From the NCBI GenBank assembly GCA_015494715.1, contig WGAT01000097.1, positions 1-46,939 on the forward strand: a DNA stretch of 46,939 nucleotides. Direction: 5' to 3'. Within the stretch, counting starts at the first letter, position 1; each line of letters begins with the position of its first letter. This DNA is from Campylobacterota bacterium. Its GTDB lineage: Bacteria > Campylobacterota > Campylobacteria > Campylobacterales > Nitratiruptoraceae. Below, one piece after another: positions 16,090-46,111 of this stretch. A program made the position numbers and the translations under genes. Below the pieces are notes generated by a model. That model did not search any database. It was not told where the DNA came from and was given only the letters and a program-made list of their open reading frames with translations.

Positions 16090-16464
16090 TCAAAGCGTCA
16101 AAAACCGGTCGATTTTTTGATTGAGTTCTTGTTCTTTGATAGGTTTGTTAATAAAGTCGTTGGCGCCCGCATCGATCGCCTTGCCTTTTTGTGTTTCGTC
16201 GGTACTAAGGGCGATGACGGGAATTTTGCTAAATCTTGGATCTTTTTTCATATACTTCAGCGTTTCGATACCATCAAGACGAGGCATAAGAATATCGAGT
16301 AGTACAAAATCCACATCGGGATTTTTATTTAAAATTTCTAGAGCCTCTTGACCATCTTTCGCCTCTAGCGTTTCGTACACCTTGGGGTTTTTCCTCAAAA
16401 TGGTCTCTAAAAGCTTCCTGTTGATGATATCGTCATCCACATAGAGAATTTTTAACTGGTTCAT
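16090..16464 (-). CDS. Stand-alone CheY-like response regulator receiver
   Basis: A single receiver domain of 124 residues without an output domain. The acidic pocket is D10-D11-D12, the phosphorylation site D57 (FVLLDILMPRLDG), the switch residue T88 (ALSTDE) and the conserved K107-P108 (INKPI). It overlaps the stop of the hybrid kinase gene (ATGA), so the two are made together. It probably takes phosphate from the kinase or the HPt protein and acts by protein contact, for example on a motor, another kinase or an enzyme. The target cannot be told from the sequence. Confidence 0.9.
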   Translation of the reverse strand: MNQLKILYVDDDIINRKLLETILRKNPKVYETLEAKDGQEALEILNKNPDVDFVLLDILMPRLDGIETLKYMKKDPRFSKIPVIALSTDETQKGKAIDAGANDFINKPIKEQELNQKIDRFLTL

Positions 16465-19400
16465 GCCGTCTCACTCACTTTCATCAATCTTTCTAATTCT
16501 TCTTTAAAAAACTCTTTTTGAATGATATTTTTGACAATATCGTTATAAAATTCTCGCTCGATACTGGGCAGTCGTTTGACATCAAAACTAGGCTCGACGA
16601 GAAGGACAAAGCTTGTATTTGGGTACTGCTGTTTGAGTTTTTGGATCTTATGAAAATTATAGTGGTCTGATTCTTTGTCGATAAAGACAACTTTATACTT
16701 TCGCTCTTGCATTCTTTTTTCTAAGTCCTCCAGATCCATCGCGATGTCGACTCTATAGCCCAAAGATTTAAGAACATTGGCGAAAAGTTTTGATTCCAAG
16801 GGACTTTTTTTCAATAAAAGTATATCATAATCGGTATCGTTTTGTTGCTCTTGTGTTTTGGATTGGTCGCCTTGCTCAGGTTGAGCGGCTAGCTCTTGAG
16901 TGGCGACATATTTTTTGTCCGGTAAAAAGGCTTTGAGAATCGTTTCTATATCTTTACGATTGATAGGTTTGGTGATATATTCGTCAAATCCCTTTTTCAT
17001 AAAGCGCTCCCTATCACCTTTGAGGGCGTGGGCGGTCAGGGCGATAATGGGCGTGGGGATAAGATGCATCTCTTTTTCATACAGATGAATCTCTTGTAGC
17101 GCTTCAATTCCGTCTTTGACGGGCATTTGGATGTCCATAAAAATGATATCGTACTGGTTCTTTTTGAATTTTTCAATCGCCTCAAGCCCGTTGTCGGCCA
17201 AGTCTACCTCCAGTCCAAAGTCTTCGAGCGTTTTTTTAATCAATTTTTGGTTGATGATATTGTCTTCGGCCACCAAGGCTTTGGCTTTAAACTTGATATT
17301 TTCGGAGCCGGCGAGTATGGTGGCTTTTTGATTGAGTTTTTGGGTGTTTTGAATATAAAACTCAAGGAGCTGTTTGAGTTTTGTATAGTTGACGGGTTCG
17401 TAGATATTTCGGATGATTTTCCCCATAAGCTCTTCAATGCGTTTTTTAAAGGTCACTTTGGAGATGAGAGCTACGGGGATTTGTTGCATATGCAGCGTTT
17501 TTACGCGATTTTCGTCCACAAAATCAAAATCAAGTAGGGCGAAATTGCACTCTTTAGCCTTTTGTAAAGCGTTTTGCAGCTCTTGGCTCTCCTCTAGTTT
17601 GACCCCAAAAAAGTCGCAGTACTCCTCGATATATCTGGTTTGGATTTTTGCGTACTTTTTGGGTTCGTAATAAAAGAGCTTAAGACCCTCAAAGCGGCCC
17701 TGGTAGGTTTCGTTTAGGACGGGAATCTCTTCGAGCTCCAGTGTGAAAAAGAAGCGGCTCCCTTTACCCTCTTCACTCTCTATTTTGAGTTTGCCGCCCA
17801 TAAGTTTGACAAATTCACTAGAGATCGTTAGACCCAAACCGGTGCCTCCATATTTTCTTGTTACTGATATATCGGCTTGGGAGAAAGCTTCGAATATTTT
17901 TTCTTTTTTGTCTTTGGGGATGCCAATACCCGTATCGCGTACCTCAAAATGGATAATGGCTTTGGAGTCTTTTTGGCCTATCTTTTTTATCTCTACGGCG
18001 ATTTCCCCCCCTTTGGGAGTGAATTTTACGGCGTTGCTGATGAGGTTTATGAGTACCTCTTTGATTTTTGTAGGGTCTCCTTTGAGAGGCTTTTCAAGAT
18101 GGGGGTCTATGAAAAAAGCCAGATTTATCCCCTTTTCCGCCGCTTTTGGGGCATAGACTTCCACTGCGTTTTCAAACTCTTGAATCGGCTCGAATACAAC
18201 GCTTTCTATTTCGATTTTGTTGCTTTCGATTTTGGCGATGTCAAGGATGTTGTTGATAATTTCTAGCAGGTTTTCGGAGCTTTTTTCAATGATGGAGACA
18301 AACTCTTTTTGTTCTTCGCTCAAAGGGGTGTTTTTGAGCAGGTCGGTAAAGCCCATAATGCCGTTGAGGGGAGTGCGGATTTCATGGCTCATATTGGCCA
18401 AAAACATACTTTTGGCTTTGTTGGCCTCTTGGGCCGCTTCTTTTGCGTCTTCGGTCTTTTTGAGAGCCAGCTCAAGGAGTTCGTAGGCTTTGTTGATACC
18501 CTCGATCGATTCGAGATTGATCTTTTGGGCAAAATCGCTTTGTTGTTCTAGATCTTCGCTCAGCGCTACTTTTTTTATGATCTCTTCGAGCTTTTTGATG
18601 TTCCAAGTGATATCTTTGGTAAACAAATAGCTAAAGATGAGCAATATAAAAGAGAGAATCCAAAAAGCAAGGCTCAAAAGCAAAGCGACGAGATTGAAAT
18701 GGATCTCTTTTTGATCCAATGTCAAGAGCATATCCCGCAACTGAAGGGCGAAGCCGTTGAGTTCGTCGATCTTTCTTTCTTGGACGCTTAGCCACATCTT
18801 CCAAGGTAAAAGCCCCTTTTCGTAGAGTCCAAGACGAAATTTTTGGAGGGCCTTGAAATTTTTTTGGAAGTTTGGTTGTTGTAAAAGCGTGGAGAAGAGC
18901 TGCTTGAGGGTGGTGTTGCTCAGTGTTGCGCCGCTAAAAGCGTCGGCTTTGGTGGCAAAAGTTAAAAGTTGCTTTTTTTTCTCTTCGTTAAGCAGATGAG
19001 CAAGGATATAGTAGGCCGCCGCTCCTTCTTCTATAGAGCTGTAGTCCATACTATAGCTTAGGATGGAGTAGGCCGTGCTGAGGCGAGAGAGCTGGGGGGA
19101 TATCTGTGTTTTGGCCAGATTTTGGATCTGTTGCAAGAGGCTTTGGGTAATGGCGTTGGTATAGAGGGCAAAAAATATCTTTTGAAAATCGTCGCTTCTT
19201 TGTGCTACTTTCTCCCGTACTATCTTTAAAATGGCCAAGTTATTCAGCAGCGTGCCATACTCCTCTTTTGGTAGGACCTTTTTTAATCGCCAGATATTTT
19301 GATCCGTAAGATCGTAGGTAGATTTGAGCTGTTTTTGGGTTATTTCGGGCGTTTTGGCTAAATAGAGGGCCGAGAGGGTACGCTCTTTGCCCAAACTTTT

Positions 19401-19565
19401 TAGGGTCTGTAAAATCTGTTGGGATATGACAAGTTCTTGTTTATACTTTTTAGCCGTAATATATTTGATGGTAAAGTAGTAAAGAAAAAATGCCGACAGG
19501 ATAAAAAGGATCAATATAGGAAACAAAGAGATAATCCTGAGTCGACTTTTCATATTCAATTCCAT
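16461..19565 (-). CDS. Hybrid histidine kinase with NIT-type sensor and three receiver-like domains
   Basis: A 1034-residue membrane kinase. TM1 is at about 10-33 and TM2 at 290-315; between them is an all-helical periplasmic domain with KERTLSALYLA and LTDQNIWRLKK, matching the NIT (nitrate/nitrite sensing) pattern. The kinase core has H394 (MSHEIRTPLNG), N box NLISNAVKF, DTGIGIP and GGTGLGL. A degenerate receiver at about 625-740 lacks the acidic pair; a complete receiver at about 762-880 has D811 (FMDIQMP) and TKP; a third at about 912-1030 keeps D963 but has LLLKKSPL where the acidic pair belongs. It overlaps the downstream receiver gene and follows the HPt-repeat gene by nine bases. Sensing of an N-oxide is a family-based inference. 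Confidence 0.88.
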   Translation of the reverse strand: MELNMKSRLRIISLFPILILFILSAFFLYYFTIKYITAKKYKQELVISQQILQTLKSLGKERTLSALYLAKTPEITQKQLKSTYDLTDQNIWRLKKVLPKEEYGTLLNNLAILKIVREKVAQRSDDFQKIFFALYTNAITQSLLQQIQNLAKTQISPQLSRLSTAYSILSYSMDYSSIEEGAAAYYILAHLLNEEKKKQLLTFATKADAFSGATLSNTTLKQLFSTLLQQPNFQKNFKALQKFRLGLYEKGLLPWKMWLSVQERKIDELNGFALQLRDMLLTLDQKEIHFNLVALLLSLAFWILSFILLIFSYLFTKDITWNIKKLEEIIKKVALSEDLEQQSDFAQKINLESIEGINKAYELLELALKKTEDAKEAAQEANKAKSMFLANMSHEIRTPLNGIMGFTDLLKNTPLSEEQKEFVSIIEKSSENLLEIINNILDIAKIESNKIEIESVVFEPIQEFENAVEVYAPKAAEKGINLAFFIDPHLEKPLKGDPTKIKEVLINLISNAVKFTPKGGEIAVEIKKIGQKDSKAIIHFEVRDTGIGIPKDKKEKIFEAFSQADISVTRKYGGTGLGLTISSEFVKLMGGKLKIESEEGKGSRFFFTLELEEIPVLNETYQGRFEGLKLFYYEPKKYAKIQTRYIEEYCDFFGVKLEESQELQNALQKAKECNFALLDFDFVDENRVKTLHMQQIPVALISKVTFKKRIEELMGKIIRNIYEPVNYTKLKQLLEFYIQNTQKLNQKATILAGSENIKFKAKALVAEDNIINQKLIKKTLEDFGLEVDLADNGLEAIEKFKKNQYDIIFMDIQMPVKDGIEALQEIHLYEKEMHLIPTPIIALTAHALKGDRERFMKKGFDEYITKPINRKDIETILKAFLPDKKYVATQELAAQPEQGDQSKTQEQQNDTDYDILLLKKSPLESKLFANVLKSLGYRVDIAMDLEDLEKRMQERKYKVVFIDKESDHYNFHKIQKLKQQYPNTSFVLLVEPSFDVKRLPSIEREFYNDIVKNIIQKEFFKEELERLMKVSETA

Positions 19566-37376: not shown

Positions 37377-37425
37377 AAAACACTCTAGTACTCTATTGTG
37401 TCTTGATACTTGATAAGGAGATGTG

Positions 37426-38022
37426 GTGGCAAAAGAGGTAAAAGAGAGGAGAAAACATCAGATTATGGAAGCTGCTTTAAAGCTCTTTAGCAAAGAGGGC
37501 TTTTTTGAGGTGACCATGGCGGATTTGGCAAAAGAGCTTGGTATGAGTGTAGGAAATTTATACAACTACTTTACCTCCAAAGAGGCTTTGGCCAAAGAGC
37601 TCATACTCTACATTTCCAAAATATTGGGCGAAGAGATTCGCCGTATCAATCTTTTATCCATTAGTGCTAAAGAAAAAATTTATAAAATCGTTGATTTTTA
37701 TTTTCATACCGCCAAGGAGCGCCCAGAACTCATTGAATACTTTTTACGGATATATCTGGCGCATCGTGAAGTTTTCAAACATGGCTGCGAGGGAATGATC
37801 TGCGTGGGACCTTTTGTGACGGAGATAATGATCTTTTTTGAAGAAGGGGTTCGCAGCGGAGAGCTGAGGGACCAAGATTTTTTCAGTGCCTTTGGACTTT
37901 TTATGGGCTATCTTGGCGGTATGGTCTTTTTGATGGGAGAGCGGATGCTGCCAAACGAGATAGAGTACTATATCGAGGATATAGCCCAAAATATCTACAG
38001 GGCTTTAAAGAGTGAAGCCTAA
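37426..38022 (+). CDS. TetR-family transcriptional regulator
   Basis: A 198-residue TetR protein. The N-terminal helix-turn-helix is seen as ERRKHQIMEAALKLFSKEGFFEVTMADLAKELGMSVGNLYNYFTSKEAL in outline, with the family-typical Y-N-Y-F turn. The C-terminal ligand domain is all helical and carries two Cys (HGCEGMICVG) that could sense metal or redox state. Of two adjacent GTG codons, 37426 sits five bases after AAGGAG and is preferred to 37423. Its stop overlaps the next gene, a hydrogenase small subunit, by 11 bases, so regulator and hydrogenase are made together. Likely targets are its own unit and the hydABC operon 2 kb downstream; this is inferred from position only. Confidence 0.85.
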   Translation: MAKEVKERRKHQIMEAALKLFSKEGFFEVTMADLAKELGMSVGNLYNYFTSKEALAKELILYISKILGEEIRRINLLSISAKEKIYKIVDFYFHTAKERPELIEYFLRIYLAHREVFKHGCEGMICVGPFVTEIMIFFEEGVRSGELRDQDFFSAFGLFMGYLGGMVFLMGERMLPNEIEYYIEDIAQNIYRALKSEA

Positions 38023-38869
38023 AATCCTCTGGCTCCAAGGAGTCACGTGCAATGGTAACAGCCACTCCTTTTTCAATCTGCCAAATTTCAAGACTTTATA
38101 TGACCAATTCGAGTGGCTCTATCACCCTATCTTACCCTCCAAGCTCTCTTTGGATGAGCTCTTTGATGCCAAGCCTGAGATTTTGGTATTGGAGGGTGGA
38201 CTCAAAAATGGATGGCAAAAAGGCCAAGAAGAGGTTGTTGCGCTCTTTTTAAAGTTGGCCTCAAGAGCAAAAAGAGTGGTGGCTGTTGGCAGCTGCGCCG
38301 TGTATGGGGGAGTCTTTAGAGAGTATGAGAAAAGTATAAGCGGCGTGCTTTTTCAAGGGGAGCAAAAGAGTAGATGGTATGAAGCTCTCAAAGCCAAGAC
38401 AATCAACATCCCTGGATGTCCGGCGCATCCAGAGTGGATAGCTTTTGGTCTGAGCGCTGCACAACCTCATCTTGACTCCTATCATCGTCCCAAAGAGATC
38501 TTTGCCTACACCGTACACAGCGGATGCAGTAGAAACGAATATTTCGAGTGGAAAGTGGACGCCGAGGGTTTTGGCACGAAAGAGGGGTGTTTGTACTACA
38601 AACAAGGGTGTCAGGCTCCCTATACCCACGGCAGCTGCAATAAAATTCTTTGGAACGAGATAAACTCCAAAACAAGAGCGGGGACTCCTTGTTTTGGCTG
38701 TACCGAACCACAATTTCCTAAAAAAGAGCTTTTCAAAACCAAAACATATATGGGCATACCGGCCACTATGCCCCTTGGCGTGCCTAAAAGAGCCTATTTG
38801 ACTCTCACTGGCGTGGCGAAAAGTTTTCGTATCGAGAGACTGACCCAAAGGCTGATCGATGAGAGTTGA
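38012..38869 (+). CDS. Cytosolic group-2-like [NiFe]-hydrogenase small subunit
   Basis: A 285-residue small subunit without a Tat signal, so cytoplasmic. It starts KILWLQGVTCNGN: the proximal-cluster motif has C13 but Asn at 16, where Cys is usual; the other two proximal ligands are C95 (GSCAVYGG) and C136 (GCPAHP). Medial and distal ligands are visible as H169/C172, C193, C200, C209, C227 and C230 (GTPCFGCTEPQFP). The end resembles group 2 uptake and sensor subunits (SCNKILWNEINSKTRAG), unlike HydA downstream. The GTG start overlaps the tetR stop by 11 bases, and the stop overlaps the large-subunit ATG by 11 bases. A hydrogen sensor (HupU-like) or a cytosolic uptake enzyme are the two options. 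Confidence 0.85.
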   Translation: MKPKILWLQGVTCNGNSHSFFNLPNFKTLYDQFEWLYHPILPSKLSLDELFDAKPEILVLEGGLKNGWQKGQEEVVALFLKLASRAKRVVAVGSCAVYGGVFREYEKSISGVLFQGEQKSRWYEALKAKTINIPGCPAHPEWIAFGLSAAQPHLDSYHRPKEIFAYTVHSGCSRNEYFEWKVDAEGFGTKEGCLYYKQGCQAPYTHGSCNKILWNEINSKTRAGTPCFGCTEPQFPKKELFKTKTYMGIPATMPLGVPKRAYLTLTGVAKSFRIERLTQRLIDES

Positions 38870-40064
38870 GCTGTTAGAAAAGATCGAGGGGGAAGCCTTT
38901 TTGGACATGGAGTGCGAGCGTGGCAGGATACAAAATATATATGTGCGTTTTCCTCATTATAGAGGGATTGAGGAGATTTTGCGTAGCCGTCCGGCGCTGG
39001 ACGCTTTGGTGATCAATCCTCGAATATGCGGCATCTGCGGCCATGCCCACCTTATAGCTACCGCTATGGTTTTGGAGAAAGTATCTGGCATCGTGCCTAC
39101 CCAAAAAGCCAAAAAGATTCGAGAGATCACCAGATTTTGTGAAATTGTCCAGAACCATCTCAAATGGTTCTATTTAGTGATTTTCGTACAATTGGGTCTT
39201 CCATTCGATATGGATAGAGTACAGCGAATCATACGAGAGATCAACAAGCTGTTAGCCATATTTGGCGGTCAGTGGCCACACTCCTCTTATGCCTTGCCCG
39301 GTGGCGTCACCTGCGATCCTACACAGCTAGAGATCCTCCAAGCTTCTCATATAGCCCAGAGTCTACAAAGGGAGTTTGGGCTTTTATTTGGCGACTTTGA
39401 TATCAAAAATTTGCAAAAGGATCTTAAAAAGCTTTTTGATAAGTTAAATAGACTGGATGTTTTGCATCTTGGGAAAGGGTATGATAGATTTATCGTTTTT
39501 GGGAGCGATGGCTATGTGCAAAACGCCAAGTTGCTCCATGGTAAAATCCGTCCGGCGAGGCTTGAGTATGTCAAGGAGCAAGAGCAGCCAAAAAGTTTTG
39601 CAAAGCGTGTTACCTATAAGGGAAAGTTTTACGAAACCGGCCCCTTGGCTAGGACGATGATCCGTGGCGGCACTTTTGTCAAGCGGCTGCACAGACGCTA
39701 CAAGGATAGCCTCACTACAAGGATTTTCGCTCGGATTTACGAAGCTGCCCAGCTTTTGCAAAATATAAAAAACAATCTTTCTACCTTGGACTTGAGCCAA
39801 GAGAGTGCGATAGAAGCCAGCCTTCAAGATGGCAAAGCGAGTATTGCGATAGAGGCTGCCCGCGGCTCGTTGATCCATACCGTCGAGATAGAGAATCAAA
39901 GAATCAAAAACTACTCTATCGTCACTCCTACCCAGTGGAATCTCTCCAACGGCTCAAAGGACAATCTTTCTCTCATACAAAAGGCGCTTGTAGGAGCTCC
40001 TTGTACGCATACCGATCTTATATTTCGCACATTCGATATCTGCAGTGTTTGCACCACCCACTGA
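38859..40064 (+). CDS. Group-2-like [NiFe]-hydrogenase large subunit without C-terminal extension
   Basis: A 401-residue catalytic subunit. The L0 motif is HYRGIEE, the N-terminal Ni ligands are C57 and C60 (RICGICGHAH), and the C-terminal ligands are C395 and C398 in DICSVCTTH. The protein ends at that His (H401). Normal large subunits carry a tail of about 15-30 residues here, cut off after Ni insertion; its absence is a mark of regulatory hydrogenases (HupV/HoxC). DPCxxC is changed to DICxxC. It is also about 80 residues shorter than typical HupV. It follows the small subunit with an 11-base overlap, and 110 bases separate it from hydA. Confidence 0.85.
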   Translation: MRVELLEKIEGEAFLDMECERGRIQNIYVRFPHYRGIEEILRSRPALDALVINPRICGICGHAHLIATAMVLEKVSGIVPTQKAKKIREITRFCEIVQNHLKWFYLVIFVQLGLPFDMDRVQRIIREINKLLAIFGGQWPHSSYALPGGVTCDPTQLEILQASHIAQSLQREFGLLFGDFDIKNLQKDLKKLFDKLNRLDVLHLGKGYDRFIVFGSDGYVQNAKLLHGKIRPARLEYVKEQEQPKSFAKRVTYKGKFYETGPLARTMIRGGTFVKRLHRRYKDSLTTRIFARIYEAAQLLQNIKNNLSTLDLSQESAIEASLQDGKASIAIEAARGSLIHTVEIENQRIKNYSIVTPTQWNLSNGSKDNLSLIQKALVGAPCTHTDLIFRTFDICSVCTTH

Positions 40065-40136: not shown

Positions 40137-40158
40137 TACAATAGTGAATGAGTATTCA
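40137..40158 (+). promoter_or_regulatory. hydA promoter (-10 TACAAT) with overlapping palindrome
   Basis: TACAAT (40137-40142) predicts a start near 40149. The palindrome TGAAT-gagt-ATTCA (40145-40158) covers this start point, where a repressor would block transcription. The TetR protein encoded 2.1 kb upstream is a candidate binder. The AAGGAG ribosome site follows at 40163-40168. Confidence 0.45.
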
Positions 40159-40174
40159 ATCATAAGGAGCCGAT

Positions 40175-41401
40175 ATGAATAGAGAACATCTGCGCTCGCT
40201 CTTTACTACTAAAAGTGCCAGAGTGGACACCAACAAGGGTGAAGAGTACTACAACAGCTTGTATAAGCGGTGTCGAGCGAGACTCGATGAGCTAAAAAAA
40301 ATAACTCCCATGCGCAATATCGATATCGCACAGGTCCTCGAAGATGAGGGGATCTCTCGCAGGGACTTTTTGAAGTGGGCGAGTGCGACGACGGCGATGT
40401 TGATGCTGCCAGCTTCCTTTACGCCTCTTGTAGCAGAAGCTGCGGAGCTTATGAACAGAATCCCGGTCATTTGGATAGAGCTCCAAGATTGTGCCGGCAA
40501 CTCCGAGGCCTTTATCAGAGCCGACGGGCCCAAAGTGGACGAGATCATTTTAGAGATCATCTCATTGGAATTTCACGAGACTCTCATGGCCCCGGCCGGT
40601 CATCAAGCCGAAGCCCAGCTACACGATGCGGTGGAGCATTTTAGAGGTAAATATCTGCTCTTTGTAGAAGGCGCTATTCCCGTGGGGCGTGGGCGAGAGT
40701 GGTGCACGATAGGAGCCAGCGGAGAGACTTTTGAGGAGCATCTGACGAAACTGGCCAACGACGCCGCGGCTATCGTGGCGGTAGGGACATGCGCCACCTT
40801 TGGTGGGGTACCAGCCGCCGCTCCAAATCCTACTGGAGCCGTTGGGGTGATGGATGTGGTAAATAACAAGCCCATCATCAATATCCCCGCATGTCCAGCC
40901 AATCCGGCAAATATGGTAGGGGTGATTTTGCATTATGTGCTCACCGGCCAGATTCCAGAGCTCGATTCGCTGCTTCGGCCCAAATTTGCCTTTGGCTATC
41001 GTATTCACGACAACTGCGAGCGCCGTGCCCATTTCGATGCGGGCGAGTTTGTAGAGGAGTGGGGCGACGAGGGTGCCAAAAACAACTTTTGTCTCTATAA
41101 AATGGGCTGTAAAGGTCCAATGACTTTCAACAACTGCTCCATCGTACGCTACAACGAGAGCGTCAACTGGCCAATCGGTGCGGGGCACGGCTGTATCGGA
41201 TGTAGCGAGCCCGGATTTTGGGACAAGTACGCCTATGAGCGTCCTATGGCCGACGCCAATATCAAGATGGCTCCAAACGGCGGCGTGGAAAAGAGTGTGG
41301 ATCAGTTTGGTTTGGCTCTGTTGACGGCTGCTGGTGTGGGCATAGCGATCCATGCGGCTGCCAGTGCTATTGGAGGGAAGAAAGAAGGAGAGGAAAAATG
41401 A
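40175..41401 (+). CDS. hydA: Membrane-bound [NiFe]-hydrogenase small subunit HydA
   Basis: The electron-transfer subunit of the periplasmic uptake hydrogenase (408 residues). A twin-arginine signal SRRDFLKW is at 61-68, preceded by an unusually long 60-residue n-region; AAGGAG seven bases before the ATG supports this long start. The hydrophobic stretch ends in LVAEAA. The proximal cluster has C106 in LQDCAGNSEAF, with Asn109 in place of the second Cys; C206 (GTCATFGG) and C240 (PACPANP) are present. Medial and distal ligands lie in HDNCERR, FCLYKMGCKGP, NNCSIV and HGCIGCSEPGF. A C-terminal helix (GLALLTAAGVGIAIHAAASA) anchors it near HydC. It overlaps hydB by four bases. Confidence 0.95.
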   Translation: MNREHLRSLFTTKSARVDTNKGEEYYNSLYKRCRARLDELKKITPMRNIDIAQVLEDEGISRRDFLKWASATTAMLMLPASFTPLVAEAAELMNRIPVIWIELQDCAGNSEAFIRADGPKVDEIILEIISLEFHETLMAPAGHQAEAQLHDAVEHFRGKYLLFVEGAIPVGRGREWCTIGASGETFEEHLTKLANDAAAIVAVGTCATFGGVPAAAPNPTGAVGVMDVVNNKPIINIPACPANPANMVGVILHYVLTGQIPELDSLLRPKFAFGYRIHDNCERRAHFDAGEFVEEWGDEGAKNNFCLYKMGCKGPMTFNNCSIVRYNESVNWPIGAGHGCIGCSEPGFWDKYAYERPMADANIKMAPNGGVEKSVDQFGLALLTAAGVGIAIHAAASAIGGKKEGEEK

Positions 41402-43122
41402 GCAATAAGCATATCGTCGTAGACCCGATTACCCGTATCGAGGGACATTTGCGTATCGAAGCGATCATAGATGAGAACAACACCATCGTCGACGCATACA
41501 GCTCCTCGACGATGTTTCGGGGTATCGAAGAGATTTTAAAAGGAAGGGATCCAAGGGATTGCGGACTTTTGGCTATGCGTATTTGTGGGGTGTGTACCGG
41601 TACGCACTATCAGCGAAGTATCGAGGCCGTGGAGCACGCTTTTGGCGTGACCATCCCTAAAAATGCACGGCTTGTGCGAAATCTCATCCAAGGCTCGCTC
41701 TATTTACACGATCATGTAGTGCATTTTTATCATCTGCACGCACTCGATTGGGTCGATATCACAAAAGCCCTCGAAGCCGATCCCCAAAAGACGGTGGAGG
41801 AGGCCAAAAAATGGGCGAAAATCGCGGGGACGACCCCTTGGGTAGCCGATAGCGCCAAGTTTGGCGAAGTGCAAGATCGCCTCAAGAAGTTTGTCAAACA
41901 GGGTCGGCTTGGGATTTTCGCCAAAGGCTACTGGGGCAATCCCCACTACAAACTGACACCAGAGCAAAACCTCTTAGCCGTCACCCACTATCTGCAGGCT
42001 TTGGATCTGCAAAGGGACGCGGCGAAGATGATGGCTATTTTTGGCGGAAAAAATCCCCATCCCCAAAGTATCGTCGTAGGCGGGGTAACATGTGTGCAAG
42101 ATCTGAAAAACCCCGCTCGTATCGGGCTGTTTAAAGAGCTGCTCAAAGGTTTTCGAGCCTTTATCAAAGGGGCGTATCTGCCAGATATCTACATGGCCGG
42201 TACGATGTACGCCGACGAGGCGCTCGATGGTACGGGAGGGGGCCTCAAAAACTATCTGATCTATGGAGGTTTTAGACTCCAAGACAACGGATTTTACAAA
42301 TCCGAGCTACTCTTTCCAAGCGGCGTAGTGGTCGGCGGCAAATATCAAGAGTTCGATCAAGAAAAGGTGGCCGAGGATGTGACCCACGCATGGTACCAAG
42401 GAGAGAAGCCTCTGCATCCTTTCGAGGGTCAAACCATTCCAAACTACACCGGATTTGGCAAAAAAGAGGGCGGCATAGCCTATCTGGATACCAAAGGCAA
42501 GTACAGCTGGATCAAATCGCCCATCTACGACGATACCCGTGTCGAGGTAGGGCCATTGGCTCGGATGGTGGTGGGCTATGTCAAAGGGGACAAGCGTATT
42601 GGGGAGTATGTGGGAAAATTTCTCAAAAACGGCAATTTGCCGGCAAAAGTGCTCTACTCTACCGTCGGACGTACGGCGGCTCGCGCCATCGAGACAGAGC
42701 TTATGGCTGACGTGATGATGGAGTGGGTGGATGAGTTGGCCAAAAATACGGCTGCGGGCGATCTCTCCACATGGACGGAGTTTGATTTTGATTATGTAAG
42801 CAAAGATGCCAAAGGGTATGGGCTCGAAGAGGCACCTCGTGGCTCTTTGGGGCACTGGGTCAAGATCAAAGATGGCAAAGTTGAAAATTACCAAGCGGTG
42901 GTGCCCTCTACTTGGAACGCGGCGCCAAGGGATTATAAAAACAGAATGGGCGCGTATGAAGCGAGCCTCATAGGCACCAAAGTGGCCAAAGCCGAAGAGC
43001 CATTAGAGATTTTACGAACGATCCACAGCTTTGACCCATGTATCGCCTGTGCCGTGCATATCGTCGATACAAGAGGCAAAAGCTTGGGCGAGTTCAAAGT
43101 CAATACCTCTTGCTCTATCTAA
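41398..43122 (+). CDS. hydB: Membrane-bound [NiFe]-hydrogenase large subunit HydB
   Basis: The catalytic subunit that splits hydrogen (574 residues). The N-terminal ligands are C63 and C66 in RICGVCTGTHY, preceded by the L0 motif FRGIEEIL. The C-terminal motif DPCIACAVH ends at H554 with ligands C548 and C551, and a 20-residue tail (IVDTRGKSLGEFKVNTSCSI) follows, which the protease encoded by hydD should remove after nickel insertion. It has no signal of its own and is exported bound to HydA. The ATG overlaps the hydA stop (ATGA). The type is group 1 respiratory hydrogenase, which feeds menaquinone through HydC. Confidence 0.96.
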   Translation: MSNKHIVVDPITRIEGHLRIEAIIDENNTIVDAYSSSTMFRGIEEILKGRDPRDCGLLAMRICGVCTGTHYQRSIEAVEHAFGVTIPKNARLVRNLIQGSLYLHDHVVHFYHLHALDWVDITKALEADPQKTVEEAKKWAKIAGTTPWVADSAKFGEVQDRLKKFVKQGRLGIFAKGYWGNPHYKLTPEQNLLAVTHYLQALDLQRDAAKMMAIFGGKNPHPQSIVVGGVTCVQDLKNPARIGLFKELLKGFRAFIKGAYLPDIYMAGTMYADEALDGTGGGLKNYLIYGGFRLQDNGFYKSELLFPSGVVVGGKYQEFDQEKVAEDVTHAWYQGEKPLHPFEGQTIPNYTGFGKKEGGIAYLDTKGKYSWIKSPIYDDTRVEVGPLARMVVGYVKGDKRIGEYVGKFLKNGNLPAKVLYSTVGRTAARAIETELMADVMMEWVDELAKNTAAGDLSTWTEFDFDYVSKDAKGYGLEEAPRGSLGHWVKIKDGKVENYQAVVPSTWNAAPRDYKNRMGAYEASLIGTKVAKAEEPLEILRTIHSFDPCIACAVHIVDTRGKSLGEFKVNTSCSI

Positions 43123-43132
43123 GGGGGCGATT

Positions 43133-43837
43133 ATGAGCGCAAATTATCAACCTATAAAGCGAATGACGCTTTTTATGCGGCTCAATCACTGGGTGGTCTT
43201 TTTTAGTATGATAGCCGCGGTGATTACTGGCTTGTATATCGGCCATCCATACTATCAGACCCTTATTAGCGAGCCGGCTGCATACAAATTTGTGATGGCT
43301 TGGAATAGAGCCATCCACTTCTATGCGGCGATCATTTTTGATGTGAGCTCCATCGTGATAGCCTATCTTTACTTTTTTAGCAGATTCGACAAACCCATCA
43401 AAAAGCTCATCCCAACCAAGCAAAACCTCGTAGAATTTTGGGAAGTGTTTGTCAACCTCGTCACGCTCAATCGCGTCAAGCGATTTGACAGCTCCCATGA
43501 GGATAGTTTTCATGTGGTATACTTTACCATCTTTCATCTACTGCTGGCATGGATGCTGCTTACGGGTCTGCAGCTCTATGTGCTCGGACTCGAATCCGGC
43601 ATGAGCAGTATTGGCAAATGGTGGCCCACGCTTTTGCATCTAGCGACAGATTGGACGGTACCGGTATGCGGCGGGACGAAGATGGATGTGCGCTATGTGC
43701 ACCATATGACGATGTACTTTATTTTGGTGTGGATCATGTTTCATATCTATTATGTGGTATGGCGTACCATCTTTTGGCGCGAGGGCGATATCGCCATCGT
43801 TTTTGGCGGATACAAATTCAAAAGAGTCAAAAAGTGA
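43133..43837 (+). CDS. hydC: Hydrogenase cytochrome b subunit HydC
   Basis: The di-haem membrane anchor that passes electrons from HydA to menaquinone (234 residues). Four hydrophobic segments are visible. Candidate haem ligands are H19 (RLNHWVV), H62 (RAIHFYA), the His in FTIFHLLLAWML and those in VHHMTMYFILVWIMFHIYYVVW. The ATG at 43133 follows AAGGGGGCG and is preferred to the long frame from 43031, which would lie inside hydB. The stop overlaps the hydD start (GTGA). Confidence 0.94.
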   Translation: MSANYQPIKRMTLFMRLNHWVVFFSMIAAVITGLYIGHPYYQTLISEPAAYKFVMAWNRAIHFYAAIIFDVSSIVIAYLYFFSRFDKPIKKLIPTKQNLVEFWEVFVNLVTLNRVKRFDSSHEDSFHVVYFTIFHLLLAWMLLTGLQLYVLGLESGMSSIGKWWPTLLHLATDWTVPVCGGTKMDVRYVHHMTMYFILVWIMFHIYYVVWRTIFWREGDIAIVFGGYKFKRVKK

Positions 43838-44379
43838 AAACGGCGATTATCGGTATAGGCAACATCCTTTTCAAAGACGAAGGGCTTGGCGTCTATGCCG
43901 CCAAATATCTGGCGGCAAACTATCGATTTGATGAGAGTGTGGAGATAATTGACGGGGGGACGCTGGGCTTCAAGCTTATGCGCTACTATCAAGAGTTTGA
44001 CAAAGTGCTTATCTTTGATACCGTCTCCATAGAGGACGCTCCGGGAAGCGTGTACAATATTCCCAGCGATGTACTTTTGGGCCTTGGGGCCTATCGCAAG
44101 ACCGCTCACGAAGTGGAAGTGGTGGAGATGCTAGAGATCTGCTCCCTTTTAGAAAAGATAGCCAAGACCAATATAGTCGGGATGGTGCCAGAAGATATCG
44201 AAAGTGTGGAGATAGATTTGAGCCAAAGCGTGCGAGAAAATTTCCCCACGCTTATCAAAAGCGCTCTAGAGGAGTTGCAAAAAGATGGAATAGAGTACCA
44301 AAGCACTCCCACCCAAAGCCTCGAAGAGATAATTTTTCAATACCAAAATCCTACGATGGCCGATGCTGCTACGCTTTAA
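43834..44379 (+). CDS. hydD: Hydrogenase maturation protease HydD
   Basis: HydD removes the C-terminal tail of HydB once nickel is inserted. The fold starts MKTAIIGIGNILFKDEGLGV; the nickel-sensing residues known from E. coli HycI correspond to E16, D62 (VLIFDTVS) and H92 (TAHEVEVVEML). The 181-residue length is slightly longer than average because of a polar C-terminal tail. The start is GTG at 43834, overlapping the hydC stop; the ORF can be read much further upstream but only inside hydC. It overlaps hydE by 17 bases. The sensor-like hydrogenase upstream has no tail and would not need it. Confidence 0.93.
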   Translation: MKTAIIGIGNILFKDEGLGVYAAKYLAANYRFDESVEIIDGGTLGFKLMRYYQEFDKVLIFDTVSIEDAPGSVYNIPSDVLLGLGAYRKTAHEVEVVEMLEICSLLEKIAKTNIVGMVPEDIESVEIDLSQSVRENFPTLIKSALEELQKDGIEYQSTPTQSLEEIIFQYQNPTMADAATL

Positions 44380-46111
44380 ATACCCCTCCCACACCACCTA
44401 TTTTATCGCCACTATCGAGGCGGTGGCGAAGAGCTGCGGCGTAGATGTGGATATAGGCTACTCCTATCCTTTCGTCTATCTTCGGGCTAACGAGGAGGAT
44501 GCTTTTGTACAGGCTTTGGAAAAGGAGCTGCCAAACTCCTTGTTTTTGGAAAAAGTAGAAGCGGCCAAGGAGTTTATGGGCCAAAAGCCTCCCTATCTTC
44601 CAAACGGCGTGGGGCCGTGCCATCGATGTATCGGTGAGATGCTAGACCCCTCCTCTCGACGCTACTACTATCCTTTTACGATGTGTAAAGCCTGCGGGAG
44701 TCACGCCTCCTTTTTGGAGCGCTATCCATTGAAGCGGCAAAATACGCTGCTTTGTGTCTTCCAGCCCTGCGGCGGTTGCAAAGAGGAGCTATTATCCAAT
44801 CCATGGCGTGCAGATTTTGCCCTTATAAGCTGCTTGCGGTGCAACATCCCTCTTCGCCTTTCCAACGCTTCGGGTACGCGTATGCTCTACGCCAACGAAA
44901 AGGAGGAGTATAAAGAGCTTTTTGGCTATGCCGCCGCTGCCTTGCGCGATGGCAAGAGTTTGGGTATGAAGACTTTGCGTGGGCATTTTCGCTTCTATTT
45001 GACTCCCCAAGCCAATGCAAAAGTCTTGCTTCTTCGGCCAAGCGAGGAGTTTTTGATGCTAGCAAGCGAAAAGCGCGCACTCTTTAGCATCGAGCGCCCT
45101 TGGCTTCATCTGACACACAGCGGCGGCAGAGTCTACGAAGCCGCCGCCGTTTGGGATGGCTTTACGACATTGTTGGCCAATGAATTGCAAGACTACGATG
45201 TGCTCTATTTTGACGAAGAGCCACAAAGCGACTTTATGCTCGATTTTGACCTACCTATCACCCCATACAAAGCCCCTCGTCTTTTTATCAACAAACACAA
45301 GCGCTGTTTCAAATCGGGTTCCCAAGGGCTCTTCCCAAAATTTACTCCATCACAAAGGGTGGCAATTTACGATGAGTGGGTAAGCTACGAAGGCATAGTG
45401 GACAGGGTCGAACATTTCGATGAAATTCGTGCCCAAAGTGTCCTTACTTTCAAAAACGAAGAGATCGAACATTCTCAAATCGTTCGTCAAGATTTTGCCG
45501 CTACCTTGCTTGGAGGCGTTCTTCGTCAAAACTCCTTTATGGGCACGGCTATTGGTGTCTATTTTGGCGATGAGCCCGCGTTTTACTATCTTGACAAAAA
45601 TCGAGCGACCAAAATCTTCGATTTTAACAAACCTCATTGCGGCTCGACACGGAAAGTGGTGGAAAGATTTGTCAGGCTTGAGCCAAAGCGCTATGCTCGT
45701 TTTATGCAAACCGAGGGCTTTTTGGAAAAAGCGGCGGCGCTTGCGGGGTTGGAACTTGAAGAGTTTGAGCGGTTGGCACTGGAGTTTGGCGGCAAAGGGG
45801 GCTTGAGCATCGATTGCAAAATAGCCGATGATGGCTTTGATTACGGCAGTTTCTACGCTTCTATGATGAGCTTTTTGTTAGCCGGCACCGACGCTAAACT
45901 TTTGGCCTATTCCGTTTATGAGAGCTTGGGCGAGTTTATGAGCCAGCAGGCGGTGGAGGCGATGCGAAAATCCAAAGCCACCGGCATCGCTTTGGCGGGC
46001 AGACACTGCACAAACAGCGCTTTTATGAGCAGGTTTGTGCGTAACTACCCAGGCGTGCTCTTGCCAATAGAGTATCCAGTAGACGACGAGGGCGTTTTTG
46101 CAGGCATTTAA
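44363..46111 (+). CDS. hydE: HydE, HypF-like hydrogenase accessory protein
   Basis: A 582-residue protein with the layout of HypF but eroded active sites. The N-terminal 75 residues could be an acylphosphatase-like domain but lack the VxGRVQGVGFR motif. Two C4 zinc fingers are intact: C86, C89, C108, C111 and C136, C139, C157, C160, with the HypF-like SSRRYYYPFTMC. A YrdC-like region (AAAALRDGKSLGMKTLRGHF) and a Kae1-like C-terminus (GIALAGRHCTNSAFM...YPVDDEGVFAG) follow, the latter without the HHxAH metal motif. HydE in Wolinella and Helicobacter hyd operons is needed for active hydrogenase, though its exact role is unclear. True hypF begins 14 bases before its stop. Confidence 0.75.
   Translation: MLLRFKYPSHTTYFIATIEAVAKSCGVDVDIGYSYPFVYLRANEEDAFVQALEKELPNSLFLEKVEAAKEFMGQKPPYLPNGVGPCHRCIGEMLDPSSRRYYYPFTMCKACGSHASFLERYPLKRQNTLLCVFQPCGGCKEELLSNPWRADFALISCLRCNIPLRLSNASGTRMLYANEKEEYKELFGYAAAALRDGKSLGMKTLRGHFRFYLTPQANAKVLLLRPSEEFLMLASEKRALFSIERPWLHLTHSGGRVYEAAAVWDGFTTLLANELQDYDVLYFDEEPQSDFMLDFDLPITPYKAPRLFINKHKRCFKSGSQGLFPKFTPSQRVAIYDEWVSYEGIVDRVEHFDEIRAQSVLTFKNEEIEHSQIVRQDFAATLLGGVLRQNSFMGTAIGVYFGDEPAFYYLDKNRATKIFDFNKPHCGSTRKVVERFVRLEPKRYARFMQTEGFLEKAAALAGLELEEFERLALEFGGKGGLSIDCKIADDGFDYGSFYASMMSFLLAGTDAKLLAYSVYESLGEFMSQQAVEAMRKSKATGIALAGRHCTNSAFMSRFVRNYPGVLLPIEYPVDDEGVFAGI

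Follow-up and report, generated by a model that had tools for sequence, protein, structure and literature searches.

A TetR-family regulator co-encoded with an Aquifex-type group 2d [NiFe] hydrogenase in Campylobacterota, and its likely place in a hydrogen-responsive circuit

The stretch of DNA analysed here, hereafter the window, comprises 46,939 nucleotides of contig WGAT01000097.1 from a deep-sea, hydrogen-consuming Campylobacterota bacterium whose genome (1.69 Mb in 102 contigs) has close relatives named as Nitratiruptor sp. and Campylobacterales. On the forward strand lies a three-gene unit in which a TetR-family regulator of 199 aa (37423..38022; PF00440, TetR_N, 3.6e-16) is followed by the small subunit (38012..38869; PF14720, NiFe_hyd_SSU_C, 2e-24; PF01058, 4e-20; HucS, 2.1e-47) and the 401-aa large subunit (38859..40064; PF00374, NiFeSe_Hases, 8.7e-40) of a group 2d [NiFe] hydrogenase. 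The regulator may start at either of two tandem GTG codons, 37423 or 37426, and the small subunit also starts at a GTG (38012). A preliminary description of the locus had reported 11-base overlaps at both joints, and the open reading frames bear this out exactly, for tetR with the small-subunit gene and for the small- with the large-subunit gene.

Downstream of this unit and on the same strand are hydABC and a maturation protease gene: hydA, encoding a group 1 uptake hydrogenase small subunit with a TAT signal (40175..41401; TIGR00391, 8.8e-138), hydB, encoding the uptake hydrogenase large subunit (41398..43122; PF00374, 9.2e-213), hydC, encoding a b-type cytochrome subunit (43133..43837; PF01292, 1.7e-21), and hydD, encoding the protease (43837..44379; TIGR00140, 1.4e-40), the starts of the latter two having been picked by eye. 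HydB and the 2d large subunit are the only two [NiFe] large subunits in the genome. Positions 44363-46111 encode a HypF-like protein (582 aa) that has the HypF zinc finger but otherwise matches HypF only weakly; Sulfurimonas paralvinellae has a "hypothetical protein" in the same place ahead of the true hypF (L238 11245-13170), and the window contig (C97) may run on into contig C30, whose start lies inside hypF. As had been claimed, no HupT/HoxJ-type kinase adjoins the unit. Nor was one found elsewhere in the genome, where its presence would have counted as a refutation, with HupT and HoxJ queries returning generic kinase ATPase domains only and no ortholog. The reverse strand encodes, at 16461-19565, a hybrid histidine kinase that combines a receiver domain with a NIT domain (nitrate/nitrite sensing); it is no HupT relative outside its kinase domain.

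For both hydrogenase subunits the best match among solved structures is Huc of Mycobacterium, a group 2a enzyme. In a maximum-likelihood tree the large subunit falls within an Aquificota/Campylobacterota clade that includes Aquifex (20 rows, support 100/100), while HoxC/HupV of group 2b form a separate clade, also at 100/100, and 2a likewise stands apart from 2d. By this tree the window hydrogenase is an Aquifex-type group 2d enzyme, and identity with HupUV/HoxBC (group 2b) is rejected because the large subunit lies outside the 2b clade. The gas-channel positions typical of 2b (counted by hand) do not help to classify the enzyme: one, I59, is invariant, but the second is variable. Campylobacterota members (PMC12286921, PMC6702916) and Aquifex Hase III (PMC10052474) have previously been assigned to 2d, a group whose function is unresolved between a regulatory role and electron supply for carbon fixation (PMC10052474, PMC6702916); the Campylobacterota 2d-type enzymes have been termed H2-sensing, with no mechanism given (PMC2628731).

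Large-subunit residues E10, C57, C60, R335, C395 and C398 are conserved at 99-100% across 143 sequences, as are small-subunit residues C13, C95, C136, H169, C172, C193, C200, C209, C227 and C230 across 138, the latter comprising all Fe-S ligand positions. Because active-site and Fe-S residues are thus conserved, the H2 binding and electron transfer of a 2d hydrogenase are to be expected. The small subunit has no TAT_signal match, whereas HydA has one, and the large subunit terminates in CSVCTTH without a C-terminal extension. All complete 2d members stop at the C-terminal motif, as do the 2b references; in 2a, by contrast, the large subunit is extended and a protease gene lies next to it. We infer from the missing signal and extension that the 2d hydrogenase is cytoplasmic and unprocessed. 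At 39 of 143 loci (e.g. L077, L088, and L103) the large subunit ends in Gln or Lys instead of His, which is unusual for a [NiFe] hydrogenase.

Several known systems resemble the unit in part. Huc differs in the 2a extension and protease neighbour and in that 2a neighbourhoods contain no TetR. HupUV/HoxBC are likewise two-subunit [NiFe] enzymes without an extension, and their genes too have uptake hydrogenase or maturation genes close by, but in addition to their separate clade they have longer large subunits (479-487 aa) and work with the PAS-histidine kinase HupT/HoxJ and an NtrC-type regulator, HupR/HoxA, where the window unit has a TetR protein. The preliminary term "sensor-like" therefore remains plausible as a class of function, though the enzyme is 2d rather than 2b. 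Other Aquifex-type 2d enzymes (hydrogenase III, huaSL of Aliarcobacter butzleri hDNRA1, and hupSL of Sulfurospirillum multivorans) share the clade, the ending and a similar length; the Aquificota differ in that TetR sits elsewhere in three genomes with a lone pair.

The order of regulator, small subunit and large subunit is kept on a single strand in 153 homologous loci, and likewise in named loci from 80 genome contigs. Overlap occurs at the tetR-small joint in 104 of the 153 and at the small-large joint in 132, with a median spacing of -11 at both. We do not regard this arrangement as chance, given that the same order and strand recur phylum-wide at that spacing. Among 397 Campylobacterota genomes searched for orthologs (E<=1e-20 for TetR, E<=1e-40 for the large subunit), TetR was present in 115 and the large subunit in 113: 112 had both, three TetR only, one the large subunit only, and 281 neither (Fisher p ~ 1e-94, without correction for relatedness). 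Two of the TetR-only genomes (G176 and G375) have lost the hydrogenase pair and carry TetR upstream of hydA; in the third (G236) TetR is degraded. Both proteins are missing from G029, G059, and G074, members of genera (g11, g6, and g19, respectively) that otherwise carry them, and we therefore infer repeated joint loss of TetR and the hydrogenase. On plasmids of Sulfurovum mangrovi and Sulfurimonas paralvinellae the unit is present and is followed in each by uptake hydrogenase genes.

Relatives with the pair and no TetR would have refuted the proposed partnership, and in Campylobacterota they essentially never occur. The apparent counter-examples dissolved, either at a contig end, which in the single large-subunit-only genome (G323) falls inside the small subunit, or through a TetR gene at another genome position. 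The latter applies to G008, L151, L175, and the three Aquificota genomes, each with an unlinked TetR ortholog of 51-86% identity. In an Aquifex MAG this TetR gene precedes a 2Fe-2S ferredoxin gene and hydABC; its neighbour is hypB in another Aquificota genome and a HypX-like gene in G008. The ferredoxin encoded directly after TetR in the Aquifex sp. MAG (L271 1477-2375, L276) could carry electrons to TetR.

The regulator consists of an N-terminal TetR HTH and an all-helical ligand domain, as indicated by PF00440, an AlphaFold model and Foldseek matches. The Cys pair previously noted in this ligand domain is confirmed as Cys122 and Cys127 (CX4C), which all 136 hydrogenase-linked orthologs examined possess (a set that includes one paralog, from G043 at L128, with slightly longer Cys spacing) and missing from all six loci holding only unlinked TetR paralogs (40-49% identity). 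Aquificota orthologs retain the pair though unlinked. In the model (mean pLDDT 91.4) both residues lie in a non-helical stretch, 114-128, between helices a6 (101-113) and a7 (129-144); this stretch is its least certain part. Bacillus FadR and similar TetR regulators have the same type of fold (TM 0.7-0.8), but identity is only ~16-20%, and the window TetR family alone has the invariant Cys pair and the linkage to a hydrogenase. A second TetR family (L129-L134 and L272), at 40-49% identity and without the Cys pair, occurs in several Campylobacterota, and two of its loci, L132 and L134, have in their own promoters the same palindrome as that described below for hydA.

In front of hydA, at window positions 40145-40158, lies the palindrome TGAATGAnTATTCA, which we propose as a candidate, unstranded TetR operator (TGAATGAGTATTCA, 30 bases before the hydA start) in the absence of binding data. 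The FadR operator is TGAATGANTANTCATTCA, which the hydA palindrome resembles. The consensus across aligned hydA promoters is AATGAATGAnTATTCATT, ~34 bases ahead of the start codon, and the palindrome recurs at hydA promoters of genomes carrying the TetR-hydrogenase module, Aquificota included, with one mismatch in the Aquifex MAG. A site with <=1 mismatch occurs <=200 bases from hydA in 82 of 118 TetR/module genomes, as compared to 1 of 590 shuffles, which preserved bases in pairs and not full dinucleotide counts. By comparison, the hydA promoters of 12 genomes without the module, meaning that no large-subunit ortholog was found, each showed >=3 mismatches. No clear operator was found at hydA in Nautiliaceae-type genomes. 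In G256 (L252 2884-3040), hydA is separated by two exact operators from a divergent operon resembling a group 4 (Ech/Coo-type) hydrogenase, which suggests that TetR can also regulate other hydrogenases.

The exact pattern appears twice in the window genome: once at hydA, and once at a distance of 14 bases upstream of a membrane-protein gene that is followed by hypB, hypC, and hypD. This membrane protein had no Pfam or NCBIfam match; it is possibly a nickel transporter, judging only by its motif HAFGPDH and its position. A further 24 exact sites were found in 20 other genomes, 19 of them with the module (0 for a reversed-pattern control): 13 at hydA-type promoters, six at the same hyp operon, one unclear, and four unrelated. 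Conversely, 11 module-free Campylobacterota genomes held one exact site in total, within an unrelated gene. Taken together, we regard it as a strong inference from sequence, still without binding data, that TetR binds the palindrome and controls hydABC and the hyp genes. The preliminary claim of control over hydABC is supported to that extent, and of the two footprint sites it suggested, 40140-40160 contains the strong conserved palindrome and 37380-37400 contains none.

Two rival explanations bear on this operator. According to the first, TetR acts locally, repressing the operon that it forms with the hydrogenase pair, and plays no part at hydABC. TetR genes often act on their neighbours as repressors, repression of hupSL has been suggested for the TetR gene noted beside it in S. 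multivorans (PMC5357620), and 12 of 140 tetR promoters contain a site with <=1 mismatch, although some of these (L060, L074, L086, L187) resemble the start of a divergent hypA gene. Against this, the palindrome is conserved at hydA and the hyp operon and was not found at the window tetR promoter, and in G014, where TetR and hydA are on separate contigs, hydA still has a perfect site, which suggests control in trans. According to the second, some other regulator uses the palindrome, and the surrounding genes are merely a co-inherited hydrogenase island. Binding data for TetR are indeed lacking, and some genomes have TetR paralogs with a similar DNA-binding domain. However, gains and losses of the palindrome track those of TetR, even inside genera (G029 versus its g11 relatives; G059 versus G024 in g6), the palindrome stays with TetR after loss of the pair, and the window genome holds no second close TetR (one match). 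We consider both rivals very unlikely.

The reading that best accommodates these observations overall, and which we consider likely, is that TetR controls hydABC and hyp while the 2d hydrogenase provides the hydrogen input. The genes, their co-occurrence, the presence of the operator and the Cys pair are established at the level of sequence; the steps connecting them are inferred, with differing strength. The cytoplasmic 2d hydrogenase, with its small and large subunits, would detect H2 and signal to the co-translated TetR by direct contact or by electrons passed through the Fe-S chain, and TetR would bind AATGAAT-GAnT-ATTCATT ahead of hydABC and the hypBCD maturation operon. We speculate that TetR most likely represses both in the absence of H2 and releases them in its presence, and, equally speculatively, that a redox signal would most plausibly enter through the CX4C pair of the a6-a7 loop.

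A metabolic rival holds instead that the 2d pair is a cytoplasmic enzyme feeding low-potential electrons (ferredoxin) to the reductive TCA cycle, while another signal, be it redox state, oxygen or a metabolite, acts through TetR on all hydrogenase genes. Such a role has been proposed for Aquifex hydrogenase III (PMC2628731, PMC5357620), and full conservation of the Fe-S chain and active site, which counts against the circuit, fits a metabolic enzyme as well. Moreover, G176 and G375 keep TetR, both Cys residues and the operator without the pair, so TetR may have another input. Conversely, the operator is absent ahead of the pair in most genomes, which indicates that the pair is co-produced with the regulator and not with the enzymes; the large subunit is poorly conserved, with a mean identity to the window protein of 43% versus 63% for TetR; and the hupL transcript is low (PMC5357620), A. 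aeolicus Hase III is hard to detect (PMC10052474), and huaSL shows no H2 induction (PMC12286921). We consider the metabolic rival unlikely, though not ruled out.

Our preferred reading, the 2d hydrogenase as hydrogen input, draws on the same production with the regulator and on this poor expression and lack of H2 induction, as well as on the near absence of the pair without TetR and its resemblance to 2b sensors in having no processed tail. It is a likely but only moderately firm inference, without data on an H2 response or a TetR-subunit complex. The preliminary observation is thus confirmed overall and its interpretation supported, with no operator at the window tetR promoter and with direct contact and a hydrogen response remaining inferred. 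Published transcriptomes are merely consistent with a sensor: in A. butzleri hDNRA1, H2 raises hynAB 2.3-6.2-fold and lowers huaSL (PMC12286921). Counting against the circuit, hydB of S. multivorans is constitutive and hupL barely transcribed (PMC5357620), and Nautiliaceae-type loci lack the clear hydA site. In a bolder version, 2d hydrogenases of Campylobacterota and Aquificota would sense H2 and act directly on a TetR repressor through a CX4C redox change, forming a one-component switch that needs neither kinase nor second messenger; on present evidence we lean slightly against it.

We found no description of a TetR-coupled hydrogen sensor in the open literature searched, subscription literature being outside its scope. 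The near-obligate partnership with TetR and the conserved operator at hydABC and the maturation genes make the question of the 2d role simply testable. If the proposal is true, a compact H2 biosensor would be possible. More generally, H2 oxidisers among the Campylobacterota and Aquificota, including dominant vent bacteria, would detect H2 by means distinct from the sensors already known, which are linked to a kinase (2b) or to a diguanylate cyclase (2c).
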